A stretch of DNA of 46,179 nt from Coriobacteriia bacterium (GTDB lineage: Bacteria > Actinomycetota > Coriobacteriia > Anaerosomatales > PALSA-660), in NCBI GenBank assembly GCA_030651905.1, contig JAUSBS010000047.1:1-46179 (forward strand), read 5' to 3'. The position numbers and the translations under genes are program-made. A model generated the notes under the pieces. The model worked only from the letters and a program-made list of their open reading frames with translations, searched no databases and was not told where the DNA came from. The stretch's first letter is position 1, and every line of letters starts with the position of its first letter. Below are positions 23,991-33,770 of this stretch, one piece after another.

Positions 23991-25115
23991 CTAGTGGATC
24001 AGCCGCACGTGGCAGTACGAGCAGAACGTCTCCTTGTGGCACTTGAAGCACTTCTGAGGATCGCCTTCCTTCACGACGGTGTCGTGGGCGGTCCGCCAAG
24101 GCTCCGCAGCCGTGTACTCATGGTGGCACTTGTCACAGAACTGCTGGGTGTGACAGTTCACGCACTGGGGCTTCGTGACCTTCTTGGCCTGGAAGTCCGC
24201 CTTGTGCGAGTCCTTGAAGCCACCCGGGTGCGGCATCGGCAACTTGTGGCATGCGACGCAGAACTTCGCAGTCGCTCCGCCGTCTCCGTGGCAGTACGAG
24301 CAGTTCTCCTGGTCCTTGGTGAAGCCGGCCGGATGCAGGGCCTTCGAATCGAGCTTCGCTCTCCTCGTCCAGTCCTTGGCCTTGTGGGACGCGGGAACCA
24401 CCTTGCGACCGGTATGGCATGCCACGCAGAAGTCCTTCTTGTGGCACTTCGCGAAGCAATCGGCCGCGCTGCCGTTCTGAGCGACGACCTTGCCGTGGAG
24501 CGGCATCCAGCTGGTCGTGGTCGACGAACCCTTGTGGTGGCAGTTGCTGCACAGTTCCTTGAACTGGTGGCAGTTCGCGCACACCTTCGTGCTCGTGCGG
24601 CCCGTCTTGGCGTGGAAGCTCTTGAACTCCGCCGGGTGCGGCATGGCCTGCTTGTGGCAGCCCATGCAGAACGCGGATGTCGTGCCACCGGCGCCGTGAC
24701 AGATCTCGCACGCCTTGATGTTCGACGTCGCGTTGGTCGCGTGGATCGCCTTGTCCTTGGCGAACGGATCGCTGTTGGCGCGGTGCAGCCAGGTCGCTGC
24801 CTTGTGAGAACCGGGCAGCGGCTTCGTCTTGGTGTGGCAGTCAAGACAGAACTTCTGGTCGTGGCAGGCGGTGAAGCACTTGTCGATGCCGTTCTTCGTG
24901 ACGGCGGCGGCGTGCTGCGTCTTCCACGGGATCTTGACGTCGAAGGTCCATGCGACCTTCTTGCCGTGATGGCAATCGTCACAGAAGCCGGTCTTCGCGG
25001 GCTCGCCGTGACACATCACGCACTTGGCGGCCGCGGTCTTGACGACCTCGGGGTGCGACTTGGTCTTGAACTCCTCGGGATGCGGGATCTCCATGCCGTG
25101 GCAGCTGTCGCAGAA
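23991..25115 (-). repeat. Three tandem protein-level repeats in the multiheme cytochrome (third truncated)
   Basis: Units start FCDSCHGMEIPHPEEFK (25115), FCMGCHKQAMPHPAEFK (24671) and FCVACHKLPMPHPGGFK (24263); matching heme order within each. Confidence 0.85.
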
Positions 25116-25970
25116 CTTCGTCTTGATATGGCAGGTCCCGCAGTAGGAGACCGGCAGGAGCATGTTCGGGTCGCCATGCTTCGCCTCGACCTTGGCAGCG
25201 AGCTCCTCGTGCTCCTTCTCGCGCTCCTTGTACTGCTCCTCGTCCTGAAGCGCCAACTCCGCGTGGCCCTTGGGGTAGAACTCGGCCACGAGGTGGTTGG
25301 CTGGCTTGAGCGGGAAATCGGGCGTGTGGCATGTCGCGCACGTTCCCGGAGCGGTCTTCTTGCTCTCGAGGTCGTGGCAGCGATAGCACCACATCATCTT
25401 CATGTAGTCAGGGTGCTTCTTGCTCGGCTTGCCCTCGACGGTCTTGAGCGTGAGTTCCCAGCCATCCTCGTTGTGCCCGACGCGGTTGTGGCACGTCGTG
25501 CAGGTGATCTTCTTCTCGCTGTGGATCGCGTGATCGATCAGGATCCCGGGCGAAGGAGTCACCTTGCGGTTCTTGGAGTGGCACTGGGTGCACTGCCCCT
25601 CGGGCATGTACTTGCCCTCGAGCGAGAGCTTGCTGCCCGGGTTGAGGGGCATCTCATACGTGTTGCCAAGAGTGTTGACCGCTCCCGACACGCCCGCCTC
25701 CACCTTGTGGATGAGGAACGTGACCGTGTCGGAGTTCACCGGCATGTGGCAGGCCAGACACGAGATCTCCGAGTGAGAAGACTTCTCGTACGCGATGATC
25801 GCGTCGTCCTGCACCTTGTGGCACACCTGGGCGCAGAACAGCCGGCTCGAGGAGACCGCGAGCGCGACCGCAACGAACGCGATGAGGCCGATGAGCACGA
25901 CCCCCGTCCAGATGATGTACCGCGGCCGCCGGACCGGGTCCTTGAATCCGGCTAGCGAGATCTTCGCCAT
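23991..25970 (-). CDS. Membrane-anchored multiheme c-type cytochrome (NapC/NrfH-like N-terminus)
   Basis: Single N-terminal TM (IIWTGVVLIGLIAFVAVALAV); 21 CXXCH plus 3 CX3CH motifs counted by eye; ATG at 25970 with GGAGAGG upstream. Confidence 0.95.
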   Translation of the reverse strand: MAKISLAGFKDPVRRPRYIIWTGVVLIGLIAFVAVALAVSSSRLFCAQVCHKVQDDAIIAYEKSSHSEISCLACHMPVNSDTVTFLIHKVEAGVSGAVNTLGNTYEMPLNPGSKLSLEGKYMPEGQCTQCHSKNRKVTPSPGILIDHAIHSEKKITCTTCHNRVGHNEDGWELTLKTVEGKPSKKHPDYMKMMWCYRCHDLESKKTAPGTCATCHTPDFPLKPANHLVAEFYPKGHAELALQDEEQYKEREKEHEELAAKVEAKHGDPNMLLPVSYCGTCHIKTKFCDSCHGMEIPHPEEFKTKSHPEVVKTAAAKCVMCHGEPAKTGFCDDCHHGKKVAWTFDVKIPWKTQHAAAVTKNGIDKCFTACHDQKFCLDCHTKTKPLPGSHKAATWLHRANSDPFAKDKAIHATNATSNIKACEICHGAGGTTSAFCMGCHKQAMPHPAEFKSFHAKTGRTSTKVCANCHQFKELCSNCHHKGSSTTTSWMPLHGKVVAQNGSAADCFAKCHKKDFCVACHTGRKVVPASHKAKDWTRRAKLDSKALHPAGFTKDQENCSYCHGDGGATAKFCVACHKLPMPHPGGFKDSHKADFQAKKVTKPQCVNCHTQQFCDKCHHEYTAAEPWRTAHDTVVKEGDPQKCFKCHKETFCSYCHVRLIH

Positions 25971-26172
25971 ACGCACCTCTCCTTGCTCACATCGGGGCTA
26001 CGACGCGCACGGATGGAGCGGATTCCCCTCCCCGCCCCAACCATCACGATATGGGAACCCTCACACGTGCGCAAGCACACCCGTGAGGTCGCGCGTCGGC
26101 CTGATTCGGCCTCTTACAGCAGGGGATTCGGCGCGTCGGTATCGATTCCTGCACGGTGACCGCGAAGCGGTG

Positions 26173-26631
26173 TCAGCGAAGCGCGAGAACGATCTCGATC
26201 TCCACGGGCGCGCCGAGCGGCAGGGCGATCACGCCGACCGCCGCGCGAGCATGGCGCCCGGCCTCGCCGAACGCTGCCAGCATGACGGCGCTGGCCCCGT
26301 CGACCACAGACGGCTGTGCCGTGAAGCCCGCAGTCGACGCCACGTAGCCGGTGAGCTTGACCACACGCTCGACGTCATCGAGGTCGCACACAGTCGAGGC
26401 CGCGGCCAGCGCATTGAGCGCGGCCTGCTCGGCGCACGCCCTGGCCTGCTCGGGATCGATCTCCGCCCCGACGATGCCCGACGCCAGCAGCTGGCCCGCC
26501 CGGAGCGGCAACTGTCCGGCCGTGAACACGAGCCGATCGGTGAGGACTGCGGGAACGTACGAGCCGAGCGCACCCGGTGCGGGCGGAAGCTCGTAGCCCG
26601 CTGCGGCCAGTCTGGCGGCGACCTCGGACAT
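26173..26631 (-). CDS. RidA (YjgF/YER057c/UK114) family protein
   Basis: LVFTAGQLPLRAGQLLASGIVGAEIDPEQARACAEQAALNALAAASTVCDLDDVERVVKLTGYVAS...VGVIALPLGAPVEIEIVLAL. Confidence 0.9.
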   Translation of the reverse strand: MSEVAARLAAAGYELPPAPGALGSYVPAVLTDRLVFTAGQLPLRAGQLLASGIVGAEIDPEQARACAEQAALNALAAASTVCDLDDVERVVKLTGYVASTAGFTAQPSVVDGASAVMLAAFGEAGRHARAAVGVIALPLGAPVEIEIVLALR

Positions 26632-26641
26632 GTGGCCCCGC

Positions 26642-27802
26642 CTACCCGGTGACCAGCGAGTCGGCAAGGCTGTTCATCTCGCCGACGGAGGATGAGACCT
26701 GCCGCGCCGCGGCAGCCTGCTGCTGACTGACCTGCGCGACCTCCCGCATGGAGATCACCACCTGGTCCGAAGCGGTCCGCTGCTGTTGGGTGGCGATGGA
26801 TATCTGCTTCGCGGCATCGGTCGTCTGCTCGACCTCCTGGACGATGCGGTCGAGCGCGTCGGCGGTGCGATGCGCGATGTGCTTGCCCTCGTCCACCTTC
26901 TTGGCAGCGCGCTCGGTCGCCATCACGAGCGCGGAGGTGGATGCCTGGATCTCGCGCACGACGCGCCCGATCTCCTGCGTCGACTCCGTGACGGAGTCGG
27001 CCAGTTTGCGGATCTCCTCGGCGACCACGGCGAATCCCTTGCCGGCCTCGCCGGCGCGGGCGGCCTCGATCGCGGCGTTGAGCGCAAGGATCTTCGTCTG
27101 CTCGGCGATCTCGTCGATGATGGTCAAGACCCGGCCGATCTCCTGGCTGCGCTCGCCAAGCTGCAGGATACGGTCGGAGGACTGCATGGTGGTCGTCCGG
27201 ATCTCCTCGATGCCGTTCGCCGTCTCCGCGACGGCGGTCATGCCCTCCTCGGCGCTCGCCAGCGTGCGTTCCGCCACGCGGACGACGGCTTCGGAGTTCT
27301 CCGCGATCTGCTTGGAGGTCTGCGCCAACTCTTCGAGCGTGGCGGACGTCTGGGTGACCGCCGCTGCCTGCTCGGCCGCGCCGGCGACCTGCTGTTCGCT
27401 GGCCGCCAGGATGTCCGACGCGAGCCCGCGTAGCCTGGAGTTCACCTGACGGGCCTGCCCGAGCAGGGTCGTGACGTTGCCGAACACGCGGATCAGCTCC
27501 GTCCGTGCGCCATCGATACCGGTCGAGTCGTGGACGGTGATGCTGAGGGCTGCTCCCGCATCGCCGAGCACACCTCGCAGGACCGCCTCGGACGTCCTTC
27601 GGGCGACCTGCCAACACACGACACCCATGCCCGCCCCCGCCGCCAGACACAGCGCGACGAACACAACGGTCGGCGCCGCCCCACGGAAGTCGACGAAGAA
27701 GCTGGCGAACACGGGGAAGACGACCCCCGTCGCGATCCCCACCGCAAGCATGGAGACCAGCAGCCGTCGCCCGGTCGCGTCGTGGTTCGTCTTGGGGCTC
27801 AC
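26642..27802 (-). CDS. Methyl-accepting chemotaxis protein without an obvious ligand-binding domain
   Basis: Two close TM segments then MCP signalling domain ([43 protein letters not shown]); GTG at 27802 with GGAGGT preferred over the ORF-track start at 27850. Confidence 0.9.
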
Positions 27803-27898
27803 TTCTACCTCCAGAGGCGGGTCCGGGAACGTCTCGCGACCACGTGTCACTCGGCCGCTGCCATGATAGCACCGGCCGTCGGGCCGCTTGCGGTATCA

Positions 27899-27914
27899 AT
27901 ACCCCTTGGGGTAT
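27899..27914. promoter_or_regulatory. Palindromic operator candidate (CsoR/CstR/RcnR-family type)
   Basis: ATACCCC-TT-GGGGTAT, 7-bp perfect arms, in the intergenic region divergent between the MCP and the putative selenoprotein; covers the expected -35 region of a TATGAT -10 at 27926-27931. Confidence 0.55.
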
Positions 27915-27974
27915 GCTTCCACTGCTATGATCCACGTGGCGGCCTGCGACGGCCGGCCGGTGATGAGGAGAGCC

Positions 27975-28307
27975 ATGGGACCCGTTGTCGTTCAAGTCTT
28001 CGACATGCCCGCTGAGACCGCCTGCTGCAGCGGCGGTTGAGGTCCATCGTGGTCTCCGGAGGAGATCACATCGATCGTGCGGGCCGAGATGGAGCGAAGG
28101 TTCGGTGATCGCGCCCGTATCGACTACCACGACGTGACCAGCGAGGCTACCCGAGCAGAGTACGCCGACACCGTCGAGGCGATCCGGGACGGCGGTCTGC
28201 TCTATCCCGTTACGGTCGTGGACGGCGAACCGCTCTATGACGGCGCAGTCTCATATCCCGCCATCCTGCGCGCGGTGGACTCCCGGCTCGCCGGGCAGGA
28301 GTCGTGA
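27975..28307 (+). CDS. Putative selenoprotein, thioredoxin-fold-like with CC-x3-U motif (UGA at 28038-28040 read as Sec)
   Basis: ATG at 27975 with GAGGAG upstream; one in-frame UGA: MGPVVVQVFDMPAETACCSGG[U]GPSWSPEEITSIVRAEMERRFGDRARIDYHDVTSEATRAEYADTVEAIRDGGLLYPVTVVDGEPLYDGAVSYPAILRAVDSRLAGQES; hairpin at 28049-28069. Confidence 0.75.
28049..28069 (+). promoter_or_regulatory. Bacterial SECIS-like hairpin
   Basis: GTGGTCTCC-GGA-GGAGATCAC: 9 bp (one G-U), apical loop GGA starting 17 nt after the UGA. Confidence 0.7.
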
Positions 28308-29479
28308 CCGTCCAGCGCCCGCGTGTGAGCGTCGCGGCGTGCGCCTCATACGACCTCGATACCGTCTCGACCGCGCTCCAGCGCGCGCTCGATCCACTCG
28401 GCGGGATGGGCTCGTTCGTCTCGCCCGGACAACGCGTCTTCCTCAAGGTGAACCTGCTCATGAAGGCGGCGCCCGAGCGCGCGGTCACCACGCATCCCGA
28501 GTTCGTGCGCGCCGTCATCCGGGCGGCGTTCGCAGCCGGGGCGGCCGACGTGGCGGTAGGCGACAGCCCCGGCGGCCGCAACAGCGCAGCGTCGACACGC
28601 GCGCTGTTCGAGACGTCCGGCATCGCGGCGGTGTGCCAGCAGGAAGGCGCGCGCGTCTCGCTCCTCGACGACGCGGTCAGCCGCGTGTCGTTTCAGGGTG
28701 GGTCGCTCTACTCCTCGTTCAACCTCGGCAGCGAGGCGGTCGGCGCGGACGTCCTCATCTCCCTGCCGAAGCTCAAGACCCACGGGTTCATGATGTTCAC
28801 CGGGGGCGTGAAGAACCTCTTCGGGTGCATACCGGGCCTCGAGAAGGCGCAGTTCCACCTGAAGGTCCCGGACCGCCAAGACTTCGCCGAGATGCTTGTC
28901 GATCTGATGCTGGCGTGCGCGCCGGAGCTCACGATCATGGACGCGGTGATCGGGATGGAGGGCGACGGTCCCGCGGGCGGTCCGCCCCGGCAGATCGGCG
29001 CGCTCCTCGCCTCGCCGGACCCCGCAGCGCTGGACGTGATCGCCTCCGCGATCGCAGGGTTCGACCCGATGGATGTCTACACGGTGCGTGCCGCGGCACG
29101 ACGCGGTCTGGCTCCCGCCTCGCCCGCCGGCGTCTCGGTCGTCGGGGACGACTGGGAGCGGTTCGTGATGCGCGACTTCGCACACCCAGCCCGCGATATG
29201 TCACGAAGGCTGCCGCCGCGCGTGGCGCGATGGGTGCGCAAGCGCATCGTCTCCCGCCCCGTCCTGAGCGATCCGGCGGGCTGTACCGCCTGCCGCACCT
29301 GCGAGCAGAACTGTCCCGTGAGCGCGATCACGATGGCGGAGAAGCGCCCCGCGTTCGACTACGACACGTGCATCCGGTGTTACTGCTGCCAGGAGCTGTG
29401 CCCGCAGCAGGTCATCGGACTGCGTCGGCCATGGGCGGTGCGGAAGTTCTTCGTCCCGGACGCCGCCCGCAAGGCGTAG
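28304..29479 (+). CDS. DUF362-domain protein with C-terminal 2x[4Fe-4S] ferredoxin
   Basis: DVAVGDSPGG...VLISLPKLKTHGFMMFTGGVKNLFGCIPG; CTACRTCEQNCP and CIRCYCCQELCP; GTG start overlaps the upstream TGA. Confidence 0.9.
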   Translation: MTVQRPRVSVAACASYDLDTVSTALQRALDPLGGMGSFVSPGQRVFLKVNLLMKAAPERAVTTHPEFVRAVIRAAFAAGAADVAVGDSPGGRNSAASTRALFETSGIAAVCQQEGARVSLLDDAVSRVSFQGGSLYSSFNLGSEAVGADVLISLPKLKTHGFMMFTGGVKNLFGCIPGLEKAQFHLKVPDRQDFAEMLVDLMLACAPELTIMDAVIGMEGDGPAGGPPRQIGALLASPDPAALDVIASAIAGFDPMDVYTVRAAARRGLAPASPAGVSVVGDDWERFVMRDFAHPARDMSRRLPPRVARWVRKRIVSRPVLSDPAGCTACRTCEQNCPVSAITMAEKRPAFDYDTCIRCYCCQELCPQQVIGLRRPWAVRKFFVPDAARKA

Positions 29480-29503
29480 CCGCTCCCGCTGGGGCCGGCA
29501 GGA

Positions 29504-31519
29504 TCAGTGCTTCGAGCAGGTCTGCGCCGGCACGAGCGATGGCTCGAGCTCCACCTGGAAGACGTCCGGGCAGCGCGGGTTGGCGAGCAGGAACGTGTCG
29601 CGACAGATGCGCACGCCCACGAGGTCGGACGCCGGCGCTGCCTCATCTGCGGCGACCGCTCCGGTCGCGGGGCGCGACGGTTCCGCGAGCAGCGGCAGAG
29701 CAGCCGTGGCGAAGCGGCCCCACACCATCGCGGGGAAGCTGCCGCCTGTGACCTTGATCCCGTGCACGTTGAGCATCTCGACCTGCGCTTGGCGATAGCC
29801 GACCCACACAGCGGCGACCATGTCGCCGGTGTACCCGACGAACCATGCGTCACGGTACGACTGCGTCGTGCCCGTCTTTCCGGCGACGGCGCGCCCGATG
29901 CGCGCGTTCGTCCCCGTGCCGCGCTCCACGACGTCGCGGAGCATACCGGAGGCCTGGGCGGCCACGGCCTGCGCCACCGCGCGCTTCGGCTTCGTCGTGG
30001 ATGCGAACAGGACCGCGCCGCGGTCGTCGGTCACCTTCAGGACGGCGACCGGTGGGCTGTGCATCCCGCCGGACGCCAGCGTCCCGAATGCGGATGCCAT
30101 CTCGAGCGGCGAGACGCCTTTAGACAGCCCGCCGAGCGCGATGGCCGGATTCGGCTCCAGAGGCGAGGTGATGCCCATCCGCTTCGCGGCGTCGACGACC
30201 TTCTCGGGTCCGACCTCCATGATGAGCCGCGCGTACACGGCGTTGACGGACCAGTCCGTCGCGGCCCGGAGCGTGAGCCGGCCGGTGGTGAAGCCGTTCT
30301 CGTAGTTCTCAACCCGCCAGTAGCCGTCCTTCACGCGCACGGTGTAGGGCGACGTGTCGAAGGTGCGATCGGGGCTCACGCCGTTCTCGAGCGCGGCCAC
30401 GAGGACGAACGGCTTGAACGCCGATCCCGGCTGCCGTCGGCCCTGCGCAGCGAGGTTGTACTGCGCGGCCGCGAAGTCGCGCCCACCCACCATCGCGAGC
30501 ACCCGCCCATCGCGGGGATCCAAGGCGACCAGAGCACATTCGGGGTCGGCCGGTGCCGGCAGGACGGATGCGACAGCCGTCTCGGCTGCCCGCTGGGCCG
30601 CAGGCTCCAGTGTGGTGTAGACGCGCAGCCCCCCGGTAAAGACCGCCTTGCTACCCATCTTCGCGATGAGCTGCTGCTTCACGTACTCCACGAAGTACGG
30701 CGCGACCTTACTCGCCTCCGCCTTCGCCGCGGTCAGCTTAACCGGCGTCGCCCGGGCCTCGACCTCCTGCTCCGACGTGATCAGCCCGAGGTCGCGCATA
30801 CGGGCGAGCACCTCGTCGCGACGAGTCTTCGCGGCCGCCGGATCGACGGTCGGCGAATAGCGGGAGGGCGAACGGATCGCGCCCGCGAGAAGAGCCGACT
30901 CGGCAAGCGTCAGACTGGAGGCGGGCTTGCCGAAGTATCCGCGGGCCGCGCTCTCCACGCCGTAGCGGCCGTTCCCGAAGTACACCATGTTCAAGTAGCC
31001 CTGGAGGACCCGCTCCTTCGAGGTCTTCGCCTCGAGTTGATACGCCATGAGAGCCTGGCGCACCTTGCTGGTGACCCCACCGGAGCGACCCTCGTCGAAG
31101 AGCAACCGGACCAGTTGGAGCGTGATGCTGCTTGCTCCCCTGCCGCTCGTGCCCTGCAACGCTCCCATGACCGCGCCGGCATCGACCCCGTCGTGTTCGA
31201 AGAACCGCTCGTCCTCCGCCGCGACCACCGAGTCTTGAAGGACCTTCGGCACCGCCGAGATGTCGACGACCTTGCGATCCTGCTCGCCATGCCATTCGGT
31301 GAGCACCGAGCCGTCGGCGGCGTAGACGACCGAGGTCCGAGCCGCCTGGAGCGCGCCGGGGGCCGACTCGAGGTCCGGGAGCGTCCGGGAGAGTTCGAAG
31401 AGATAGAGGCCGGCGACCAGCACGACGACGAAAGCCACGCCGAGGGCGCCTGCGAGCATCTTCAGTATTCGGATCCAGCGACCGGAGCCTGCCACGGACA
31501 GCCCTTCGAGCCGCATGCC
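29504..31519 (-). CDS. Class A penicillin-binding protein (PBP1A-like)
   Basis: VVAAEDERFFEHDGVD...SSITLQLVRLL (glycosyltransferase; RNLA-type motif diverged), PGSAFKPFV, GKTGTTQSYRDAWFVGYTGDMVAAVWVGY; start at MRLEGLS approximate. Confidence 0.93.
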   Translation of the reverse strand, partial: GMRLEGLSVAGSGRWIRILKMLAGALGVAFVVVLVAGLYLFELSRTLPDLESAPGALQAARTSVVYAADGSVLTEWHGEQDRKVVDISAVPKVLQDSVVAAEDERFFEHDGVDAGAVMGALQGTSGRGASSITLQLVRLLFDEGRSGGVTSKVRQALMAYQLEAKTSKERVLQGYLNMVYFGNGRYGVESAARGYFGKPASSLTLAESALLAGAIRSPSRYSPTVDPAAAKTRRDEVLARMRDLGLITSEQEVEARATPVKLTAAKAEASKVAPYFVEYVKQQLIAKMGSKAVFTGGLRVYTTLEPAAQRAAETAVASVLPAPADPECALVALDPRDGRVLAMVGGRDFAAAQYNLAAQGRRQPGSAFKPFVLVAALENGVSPDRTFDTSPYTVRVKDGYWRVENYENGFTTGRLTLRAATDWSVNAVYARLIMEVGPEKVVDAAKRMGITSPLEPNPAIALGGLSKGVSPLEMASAFGTLASGGMHSPPVAVLKVTDDRGAVLFASTTKPKRAVAQAVAAQASGMLRDVVERGTGTNARIGRAVAGKTGTTQSYRDAWFVGYTGDMVAAVWVGYRQAQVEMLNVHGIKVTGGSFPAMVWGRFATAALPLLAEPSRPATGAVAADEAAPASDLVGVRICRDTFLLANPRCPDVFQVELEPSLVPAQTCSKH

Positions 31520-31643
31520 GGCATGGGAAACCACGCACTTCGCAGCGAAACACGTACCGACTCGCGCCGCGGGCCGACGGGCATCGCGCGCCCGTGCGCT
31601 ATCCTTGCACTATCGCCCCCGGAGCAAGGAGCGGCGCGCCCAC

Positions 31644-32312
31644 ATGGTAGCACTTCCCACACGCCGCGCCCCGGCGCCTGAGCCGTCCCAACGCAGCGCC
31701 GACGGTCCGGTCGCCGCCCTCTTCCTGGCGTGGCGTCGGCTGCTCACTGCGGGTATTCGCGGAGCCTGTCGCGGAGGTCGCGCCCTCGCAGCATCGCGGC
31801 CGGTGCGCGGCGCCGCCCTGGCGATACGCTACCTGCGCGATCCCGCCGGCACGCTGCGCGCCTCGGACGCGGACGATCGCACGCTGCTCAAGAGCGCGGG
31901 CGCCGTGGCACTCACTGCAGGCGTGGTGCTGTCCTTCGCGGTGCCGGGCGCGCTCGGAACCCCGCTCGTGCGCCGATTCCTCGCTGCTGGATGGATGGCG
32001 GCCTGGGCACTCGCGAGGTTGTTCATCATGCGCACCGCTGCCAGAGGCGCGCTGGCTCGCACTCCGTCCTCCATCGACGACGCATGGGGACCCGCGCTGC
32101 TGCCGTTCGCCGTCGCGGTGATCGACCCTCTGCCGCTTCTGGCGCTGGCCGCTTCAGCGCTGTTGACGTTGCGGGGCTTCGAGGGGCTCGGAGTCGAGGC
32201 GCGCGAGGCCCGGCGTGTGGTCTTCATCGCTTTCGGCGGCCAGGTCGCAGCCGAGATCGTCGCCTGGCTCGCACGAGGGGGGCTTGTGTTCCTGCTCTCC
32301 CTGCGCGGCTAG
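31644..32312 (+). CDS. Membrane protein, possibly Yip1-like
   Basis: ORF with several hydrophobic segments, ATG at 31644; family assignment tentative. Confidence 0.6.
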   Translation: MVALPTRRAPAPEPSQRSADGPVAALFLAWRRLLTAGIRGACRGGRALAASRPVRGAALAIRYLRDPAGTLRASDADDRTLLKSAGAVALTAGVVLSFAVPGALGTPLVRRFLAAGWMAAWALARLFIMRTAARGALARTPSSIDDAWGPALLPFAVAVIDPLPLLALAASALLTLRGFEGLGVEAREARRVVFIAFGGQVAAEIVAWLARGGLVFLLSLRG

Positions 32313-33256
32313 ACCGCCGCGGCCCCGTCCACCTCGACGCCGCCGCTCCCCCACTCCGCGAGCACGACGCCTGCCAGTACGACCGCGGCCCCCGCCAACT
32401 GGATGGGGCTCAACGCCTCCGTCGAGGTCAGCCCGACCGTCAGCCGCAGCGGCTCGTACAGGGAAAGCGCCGCCGCCAACATCACCGCAAAGGGCAGCTC
32501 GAGGGTCGATACGACCGCCGCCTGCGGAGCGCCCATCCCACGCATCCCGCCGAGATAGAGCATCACCGCCGCGAATGTCGGCACCGCGACGATGGCGGCG
32601 AGCGCCATCCACGCCTGCGGCTGCCAGCGCGCGACCGCCGTCCCGCTCCCGGTGAAGGCCGCGATACCCGCCATCCCGATCGCCGAGATGCCGAAGGTGT
32701 AGGCCATCAGCACCAGTCTGGGCGTCGTGCCCAGCGTGCGGAACGACAGCACGTTGAAGATCGCGTAGCCGAGACCCGCCCCGAGACCGAGCAGCACGCC
32801 TTGCGCATTCAGCGCGACGCCGCTCGAGAAGACCCCTGCCACGAGCGCGCAGCCCGCGAACGTCATGATGACCGCGGCGATCCGTCTGGGGGGGAAGTGT
32901 TCCTTCAGGAACAGCCACCCGATGATCGAGACCATCGCCGGATACGTGTAGAGAAGCACCGTCGTGACCGACACGCCGACCTCACGCAGCGCGAACGAGT
33001 AGCACAGCGAGCCCGCGCCATAGCCGGTCACGGACAGCCCGAGGAACCGCAGCAGGTCGGTCCGACCGACCTTGAGCGCCGACGGATCCCGCATCGCCTG
33101 GGCCGCGGCCATCACGACCGCCGCGATGGCGAAGCGGACCGCGAGCAGCGAGAGCGACTCCGCGCCCTGGGCGAACGCCCACGTCTGCAGCGGCCCGAGC
33201 GTGGCGAAGCACGCCGCCGAGACGATGACCGCGACCAGAGAGGACTTGCGCGTCAC
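32309..33256 (-). CDS. DMT-superfamily transporter (EamA)
   Basis: Two EamA-like halves with about 10 hydrophobic segments; VTTVLLYTYPAMVSIIGWLFLKE and AAVVSTLELPFAVMLAAALSLYEPL. Confidence 0.88.
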   Translation of the reverse strand: MTRKSSLVAVIVSAACFATLGPLQTWAFAQGAESLSLLAVRFAIAAVVMAAAQAMRDPSALKVGRTDLLRFLGLSVTGYGAGSLCYSFALREVGVSVTTVLLYTYPAMVSIIGWLFLKEHFPPRRIAAVIMTFAGCALVAGVFSSGVALNAQGVLLGLGAGLGYAIFNVLSFRTLGTTPRLVLMAYTFGISAIGMAGIAAFTGSGTAVARWQPQAWMALAAIVAVPTFAAVMLYLGGMRGMGAPQAAVVSTLELPFAVMLAAALSLYEPLRLTVGLTSTEALSPIQLAGAAVVLAGVVLAEWGSGGVEVDGAAAV

Positions 33257-33362
33257 GTGGGATGCCCTTCACGGGAAAAGGTGGATCGTACCTTCGCATC
33301 CTGCCACACAAACGCGCGGACGACGAAGGGCGGCGCATGCACACGGATGCTAGACTCGCCGC

Positions 33363-33770
33363 ATGCCTGATGCCGCTCACATCGGATCGACGCGCGATCG
33401 CGCACTGCGCTGGGTGCCCGTGCTCGCGTGGACGGGGGTCATCTTCGCGATGAGTTCGATCCCCGGCTCGAACCTGCCTGGCGGGTACTCGTTCCAGGGA
33501 CATCTCGCCGAGTACACCGTGCTCGGCGCGCTCGTCATGCTGGCCCTGCGCCACCGGCCGAGGCGGGTCGCACTCGCGCTCATCGCCCTCGCGGCGTGCT
33601 CGCTCTATGGCGTCAGCGACGAGCTGCACCAGGCGTTCGTCCCCGGACGCACGCCCGACGTGCTCGACTGGGCGACGGACACGGTCGGCGCGGCGCTCGG
33701 CGTCAGCGCGACGATAGCGTGGCTGACCTGGCGCGGGAGTCGGCGCGCCGGTGAAGAGGTCGACGGCTAG
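33363..33770 (+). CDS. VanZ family protein
   Basis: WVPVLAWTGVIFAMSSIPGSNLPG...HLAEYTVLGALVMLAL...YGVSDELHQAFVPGRTPDVLDWATDTVGAALG. Confidence 0.9.
   Translation: MPDAAHIGSTRDRALRWVPVLAWTGVIFAMSSIPGSNLPGGYSFQGHLAEYTVLGALVMLALRHRPRRVALALIALAACSLYGVSDELHQAFVPGRTPDVLDWATDTVGAALGVSATIAWLTWRGSRRAGEEVDG

Follow-up and report, generated by a model that had tools for sequence, protein, structure and literature searches.

A predicted selenoprotein family with a YuzD/ArsD-like thioredoxin fold in Coriobacteriia, probably under the control of a CsoR/CstR-type repressor

The stretch of DNA analyzed here, a 46,179-nucleotide contig of a Coriobacteriia bacterium (referred to as the window), carries a small gene whose frame opens with an ATG at 27975, downstream of the Shine-Dalgarno sequence GAGGAGAG, passes through a single in-frame UGA and ends at a true stop, the TGA at 28305-28307 (Table 1). 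An earlier note, made from the sequence alone, had described this start with its good Shine-Dalgarno sequence, the sole internal UGA, the stop and the resulting translation, all of which we recovered as given. It had further expected that standard callers would miss the gene; indeed, standard annotation cuts it in two, and ORF calling truncates it, an alternative GTG start (28077) being available in frame after the UGA. The protein of the window reads C17-x-S-G-G-U22-G-P-S-W-S around the UGA-encoded position, and its relatives, 100 to 110 amino acids in length, share the motif C-x-[SG]-G-G-U-G-P. From the CC-SGG-U-GP motif proposed previously, the near-invariant C17 was retained, while the pair C17-C18 turned out to be no family feature and was rejected as a functional element, because most members have F, W or Y at residue 18. 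A genome-wide reassignment of UGA was also considered and rejected, because the selenoprotein gene itself and other ORFs terminate at this codon.

Table 1. Features of the locus, with positions in the window and the basis of each assignment
Feature	Position	Strand	Basis
Methyl-accepting chemotaxis-type protein, divergent, bordering the promoter region	26642..27850	-	Adjoins the gene in 59/75 loci
Putative palindromic CsoR/CstR-type operator ATACCCCTTGGGGTAT	27899..27914		0 expected by chance in the window; conserved upstream
Shine-Dalgarno sequence GAGGAGAG	27965..27972	+	Sequence
Predicted selenoprotein gene, 110 aa, Sec at residue 22	27975..28307	+	Frame, profile and fold matches, homologues
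In-frame UGA, predicted to be decoded as selenocysteine (Sec22)	28038..28040	+	Same-site UGA in 45/45 homologues and 65/65 class genome hits
Candidate bacterial SECIS hairpin	28049..28069	+	Synonymous freeze, two-sided pair changes, agreement with bSECIS constraints
Protein with DUF362 and two 4Fe-4S motifs	28304..29479	+	Start overlaps the selenoprotein stop (GTGA)

The search of GTDB species genomes returned 45 homologues (54-70% identity), almost all of them from Coriobacteriia/Actinomycetota MAGs. The homologues extend across the UGA, as the earlier note had anticipated for a true selenoprotein, and each carries the UGA at the Sec site, displaced in one of them by one codon owing to a one-residue insertion. 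A profile search of 401 Coriobacteriia genomes gave 65 hits, the window genome included, each with exactly one UGA; 63 belong to the same order and 2 to another family of Coriobacteriia. Three divergent subfamilies, f46 (CGxGUG), f48 (CSGGUGPSWS) and f54 (CRGGGUAPP), were added by a scan of 398 Actinomycetota genomes, and the loci read in these subfamilies have a UGA at the equivalent site. Within one order of Coriobacteriia, nearly all members carry the gene, which also occurs in several other actinomycetotal families. Neither Cys nor any other sense codon was ever seen at the Sec site within the family (45 homologues, 65 class hits and the subfamily loci read), and no close Cys homologue was found; Cys aligns with this site in distant relatives only, namely SA0798 (Cys22), ArsD (Cys18) and a Cys-type protein of genome G625, which has CxxC at the Cys/Sec site. 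A search of plasmids for Cys homologues yielded ArsD, YuzD and one unrelated protein only, at weak E-values. Among 42 non-redundant sequences, pS is ~0.62 both upstream and downstream of the UGA, with pN/pS of 0.36 and 0.45, respectively, which indicates protein-coding sequence under purifying selection on either side. Gly21, immediately before the UGA (28035-28037), is encoded by GGT or GGA in 45 of 46 sequences, whereas all four codons occur for Gly20, a bias that we interpret as a preferred 5' context of the Sec codon.

The hairpin downstream of the UGA consists of two arms (28049-28057 and 28061-28069) and a GGA loop (28058-28060) that starts 17 nt past the UGA. The nine base pairs reported for it previously are present in the window, and the family keeps eight of them: the conserved stem comprises 28050-28057/28061-28068, to which the window adds one outer pair (28049:28069) that is standard in just 23% of the homologues. 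According to the published bSECIS model, the loop is 3-9 nt in length with G in its first two positions, the stem contains 4-16 bp, the spacing is 16-37 nt and the MFE is <= -7.5 (PMC13188914). The GGA loop, the 8-9 bp stem, the 17-nt spacing and the energy of -16.9 kcal/mol (RNAfold, 43-nt fold) all agree with this model, so the earlier placement of the hairpin within bacterial SECIS geometry was correct. Since the energy alone is not decisive (z = -1.95 versus shuffles, and weaker in two relatives), the case for a SECIS element rests on conservation. The synonymous sites of codons 27-31 (TCT CCG GAG GAG ATC) are almost frozen, with a pS of 0.014 against ~0.62 on either side, and Ser27 is encoded by TCT in 44 of 44 serines, Ser93 using five codons. 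Across 62 distinct sequences, seven of the eight pairs of the conserved stem are standard in every sequence (100%) and the eighth in 95%. At three of them (T-A/C-G, G-C/T-G and C-G/T-A), both partners have changed, so that pairing persists in distant subfamilies. The stem of subfamily f46 differs, with a one-codon shift. Judging from this conservation, Sec insertion is likely to take place under the hairpin.

The machinery whose presence had been proposed as a check is encoded in the window genome, where selA, selB, the gene for tRNA-Sec (68 bits) and selD all lie on one contig (C83), selD carrying an in-frame UGA of its own. In a panel of 31 genomes, selA was found in 20 of the 22 carriers tested; the two carriers with no selA match (G077 and G488) are both draft genomes, in which its absence possibly reflects gaps, and a 99%-complete genome of the same order that lacks selA also lacks the selenoprotein gene. 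The way in which standard callers split the gene, together with the GTG start in frame after the UGA, could be taken to mean that the UGA is a real stop and that the locus holds a pseudogene or two separate small ORFs. We regard this as highly improbable, given that the UGA is kept in every homologue, that purifying selection acts on both halves as on a single protein, that the SECIS region is synonymously frozen and that the genome possesses the Sec machinery; a pseudogene was rejected on the pN/pS and synonymous-freeze evidence. On the same comparative evidence, the gene almost certainly encodes a genuine selenoprotein with Sec at UGA 28038, as the earlier note had suggested.

With regard to the fold, the window protein matches Pfam DUF1462 (PF07315, YuzD) with 36.4 bits (gathering score, 25; E = 6.8e-9) over residues 13-101, spanning the UGA, and all 26 aligned members match the same model at E <= 0.1; Pfam ArsD is a weaker second match (E = 0.0023). 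The family profile finds the solved YuzD structure 1xg8, placing its Cys22 on U22, and the same structure is ranked first by Foldseek (prob, 1.00; TM, 0.61), followed by thioredoxins and ArsD, for an AlphaFold model with a mean pLDDT of 86, in which residues 18-21 of the active-site loop fall below 50. Thus, both the YuzD/thioredoxin-type fold guessed at previously and the resemblance of the N terminus to ArsD were supported, the latter weakly. YuzD of Staphylococcus aureus (1xg8, SA0789/SA0798) is a member of the same Pfam family, is the best PDB match by profile as well as by fold and has its redox residue at the same place; it differs in having CxxC and no Sec, whereas the selenoprotein has C-x4-U, a conserved segment, GPSWSPEE, in which the SECIS element lies, and a different operon context. 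ArsD (PF06953, NF033727; 3kgk, 3ktb and 3mwh) has in common with the selenoprotein the thioredoxin-type fold, the C-x4-C/U spacing and a G-P after the second of these residues. With the motif residues of ArsD numbered, as we assume, Cys12, Cys13 and Cys18, C17 and U22 align with Cys13 and Cys18, in line with the earlier suggestion that Sec takes the place of the third Cys; the row of locus L144, being in the wrong frame, was disregarded in this alignment. However, Cys12, the first arsenic ligand, has no counterpart (the position is occupied by A, S, T, D or N), the NCBIfam ArsD score is 16.1 bits against a cutoff of 90 and no arsA was seen among the neighbors read. Because its motif lacks the three-Cys arsenic site, we conclude that the protein is not an ArsD.

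When 26 members were compared with the NCBIfam models (June 2026), the only hits were the sub-cutoff ArsD match and two isolated weak hits to single members, and none of the NCBIfam selenoprotein models, including those for SaoT and the CC/Se family, matched any of the 26. No DUF1462 or ArsD entry is present in the table of 119 selenoprotein families in a 2026 review (PMC13188914), and the open-access literature searched gave only unrelated hits for SaoT, YuzD or ArsD in combination with selenoprotein and nothing relevant on the selenoproteins of Coriobacteriia. Known thioredoxin-fold selenoproteins (Trx, Grx, SaoT, Sec.1/Sec.2 and others; PMC13188914) are likewise small proteins with a Cys/Sec pair and a SECIS element just after the UGA, but no DUF1462/ArsD-like family is among the 119 listed. 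The family is therefore a selenoprotein family of YuzD (DUF1462)/ArsD-like thioredoxin fold not described in the sources searched, which extends the current inventory beyond 119 families; it is a variant within the thioredoxin-fold selenoproteins and not a categorically new system.

The palindrome upstream of the gene conforms to a consensus, ATACCC-N4-GGGTAT, that precedes the gene in nearly all relatives of the same order; TACCC-N4-GGGTA occurs in 49 of 52 distinct upstream regions from this order. The operator is also found upstream of the gene in subfamilies f46 and f54, which belong to other classes, and is missing from f48. The pattern has 6 sites in the window genome versus 3 for a reversed-pattern control, and some of these may be chance occurrences; in five relatives, there are 4 to 7 exact sites per genome versus 0 for the reversed control. 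The window genome has only one CsoR-family gene, and an operator site adjoins it. Aligned to a solved CsoR and to 7mq1, the encoded repressor keeps both Cys positions and has Ser in place of the copper-ligand His, the position at which the solved 7mq1 chain, presumably that of a CstR-type persulfide sensor, has Asn. These features suggest that a CsoR/CstR-type repressor probably controls the selenoprotein gene through the palindrome, and that it may be CstR-like in sensing, as judged by the one missing ligand. A two-Cys CsoR-family repressor, a palindromic operator with G/C tracts and rhodanese among the likely targets are shared with CstR/CsoR regulons, which respond to sulfide/persulfide or copper; what differs is the coupling to a selenoprotein, and the pairing of repressor and operator here is putative.

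In the window genome or its relatives, the operator fronts genes for thioredoxin, rhodanese-thioredoxin, CcdA, glutaredoxin and cysteine synthase. The sites in relatives are flanked by a CsoR-family gene together with genes for thioredoxin, DsbD_TM/CcdA, rhodanese, a cysteine-synthase-type PALP enzyme, an SBF transporter and others. These regulon data speak for reactive-sulfur/thiol redox no less than for arsenic. In the window genome, a double operator (sites 4242 and 4276 of G000:C51, locus L123) lies between the genes for a glutaredoxin and a large FAD/4Fe-4S dehydrogenase-like protein. In relatives (L150, ~3495; L154, ~3218; L167, ~3273), the same operator accompanies a gene composed of a rhodanese domain, an in-frame UGA and a thioredoxin domain, with the motif FYTDW-U-P-[ST]-C. 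As the rhodanese gene reads through the UGA into the thioredoxin domain, it looks like a second selenoprotein, probably under the same operator.

The DUF362/4Fe-4S gene is likely to be in the same operon as the selenoprotein gene, and its product is a possible electron-transfer partner; a similar gene is present in 13 of the 75 loci searched. Of 59 distinct upstream regions, 45 have a small 4Fe-4S ferredoxin-like ORF located between the operator and the gene, whereas the window itself lacks this ORF and has the DUF362/4Fe-4S gene overlapping the stop instead. In f54, a thioredoxin gene occupies the interval between operator and selenoprotein gene. In f46, the interval is occupied by the gene for a small conserved protein with no NCBIfam family (L147:3238-3534 and L143:2856-3167), and in f48, where there is no operator, a ThiI/MnmA-like sulfurtransferase-type gene adjoins the selenoprotein gene (L144:1174-2268 and L107:297-1349). 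The block at 23991-33770 of the window (multihaem cytochrome, RidA, chemotaxis-type protein, selenoprotein, [DUF362], PBP, EamA and VanZ) is largely kept across the order. The chemotaxis-type protein is a conserved neighbor that we do not consider part of the mechanism.

The explanation that we favor for these observations as a whole, with a probability of roughly 0.65, is that of a selenoprotein family in which a Cys/Sec oxidoreductase is controlled by a CsoR/CstR-type repressor; its functional part, namely, that the protein acts as a selenol/thiol oxidoreductase in reactive-sulfur or thiophile stress, has in our estimation an even chance of being right. The proposed sequence of events is as follows: (i) the CsoR/CstR-type regulon would be derepressed and the selenoprotein expressed along with genes of sulfur/thiol redox; (ii) SelA, SelB and tRNA-Sec would insert Sec at UGA 28038 under the SECIS hairpin, creating an active site in which the loop that follows the first strand holds the Cys/Sec pair, C-x4-U; (iii) the selenolate would attack a disulfide, a persulfide or another thiophile-bound sulfur, and C17 would resolve the Se-S bond; (iv) electrons for re-reduction may come from the 4Fe-4S protein or the thioredoxin of the same operon, as the gene context suggests; and (v) the outcome would be the clearing of reactive sulfur species or of thiophilic metal(loid)/electrophile damage in anaerobes. 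A broader idea, which we put forward tentatively, is that of a CsoR/CstR-family sensor regulon in anaerobic Actinomycetota, in which the two selenoproteins form a selenium-based system of persulfide/perselenide handling with the C-x4-U protein as reductase or carrier. The association of selenocysteine use with a CsoR-family regulon makes the substrate of the selenoprotein and the ligand of the repressor directly testable.

The same operator data can also be read to mean that the selenoprotein has a housekeeping redox role unrelated to the CsoR/CstR stress regulon, the operator being bound by something else or shared by the neighborhood. The location of the operator between divergent genes in the order and the operator-free f48 subfamily are compatible with such a role; nonetheless, we think it unlikely, as the gene has the operator upstream of it in three different genomic contexts and classes, and the operator is found again at the CsoR gene. 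Two further roles are less likely than that of an oxidoreductase. The protein could serve as a dedicated carrier of chalcogen, accepting selenide or the sulfur of a persulfide/perselenide and passing it on (e.g., to SelD or a sulfurtransferase) without acting as a reductase. The rhodanese-thioredoxin selenoprotein of the same putative regulon and the ThiI/MnmA-like neighbor in one subfamily would fit this role, and so would the reported modification of CstR by selenite and tellurite, in addition to sulfite (PMC5016687), and the description of the Se donor to SelD as incompletely elucidated (PMC13188914). Yet, there is no synteny with selD, which is on another contig, and reductases are the better fit for a thioredoxin fold that bears a Cys/Sec pair, which leaves the carrier role rather doubtful.

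The other role is that of an ArsD-like metallochaperone, in which C17 and Sec22, the latter replacing ArsD Cys18, would bind As(III) or another soft metalloid and hand it to an efflux pump. The similarity to ArsD is weak but recurs, both residues align with ArsD cysteines and, in two relatives, an SBF transporter with sub-cutoff similarity to ACR3 is under the same operator. We consider this role improbable: the replacement of ArsD Cys12 leaves the motif unable to form a three-thiol site, no arsA was found among the neighbors read and DUF1462 matches better than ArsD, which stays far below its NCBIfam cutoff. With this selenoprotein family, the uncharacterized YuzD/DUF1462 fold gains a likely redox-active site. 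In another genome, the frame of a PF07315 paralogue (G446:C25:11282-11542, minus strand) can be followed upstream across a UGA that lies in a UxxC context (PSG-U-RSC), possibly representing a further Sec variant of DUF1462.
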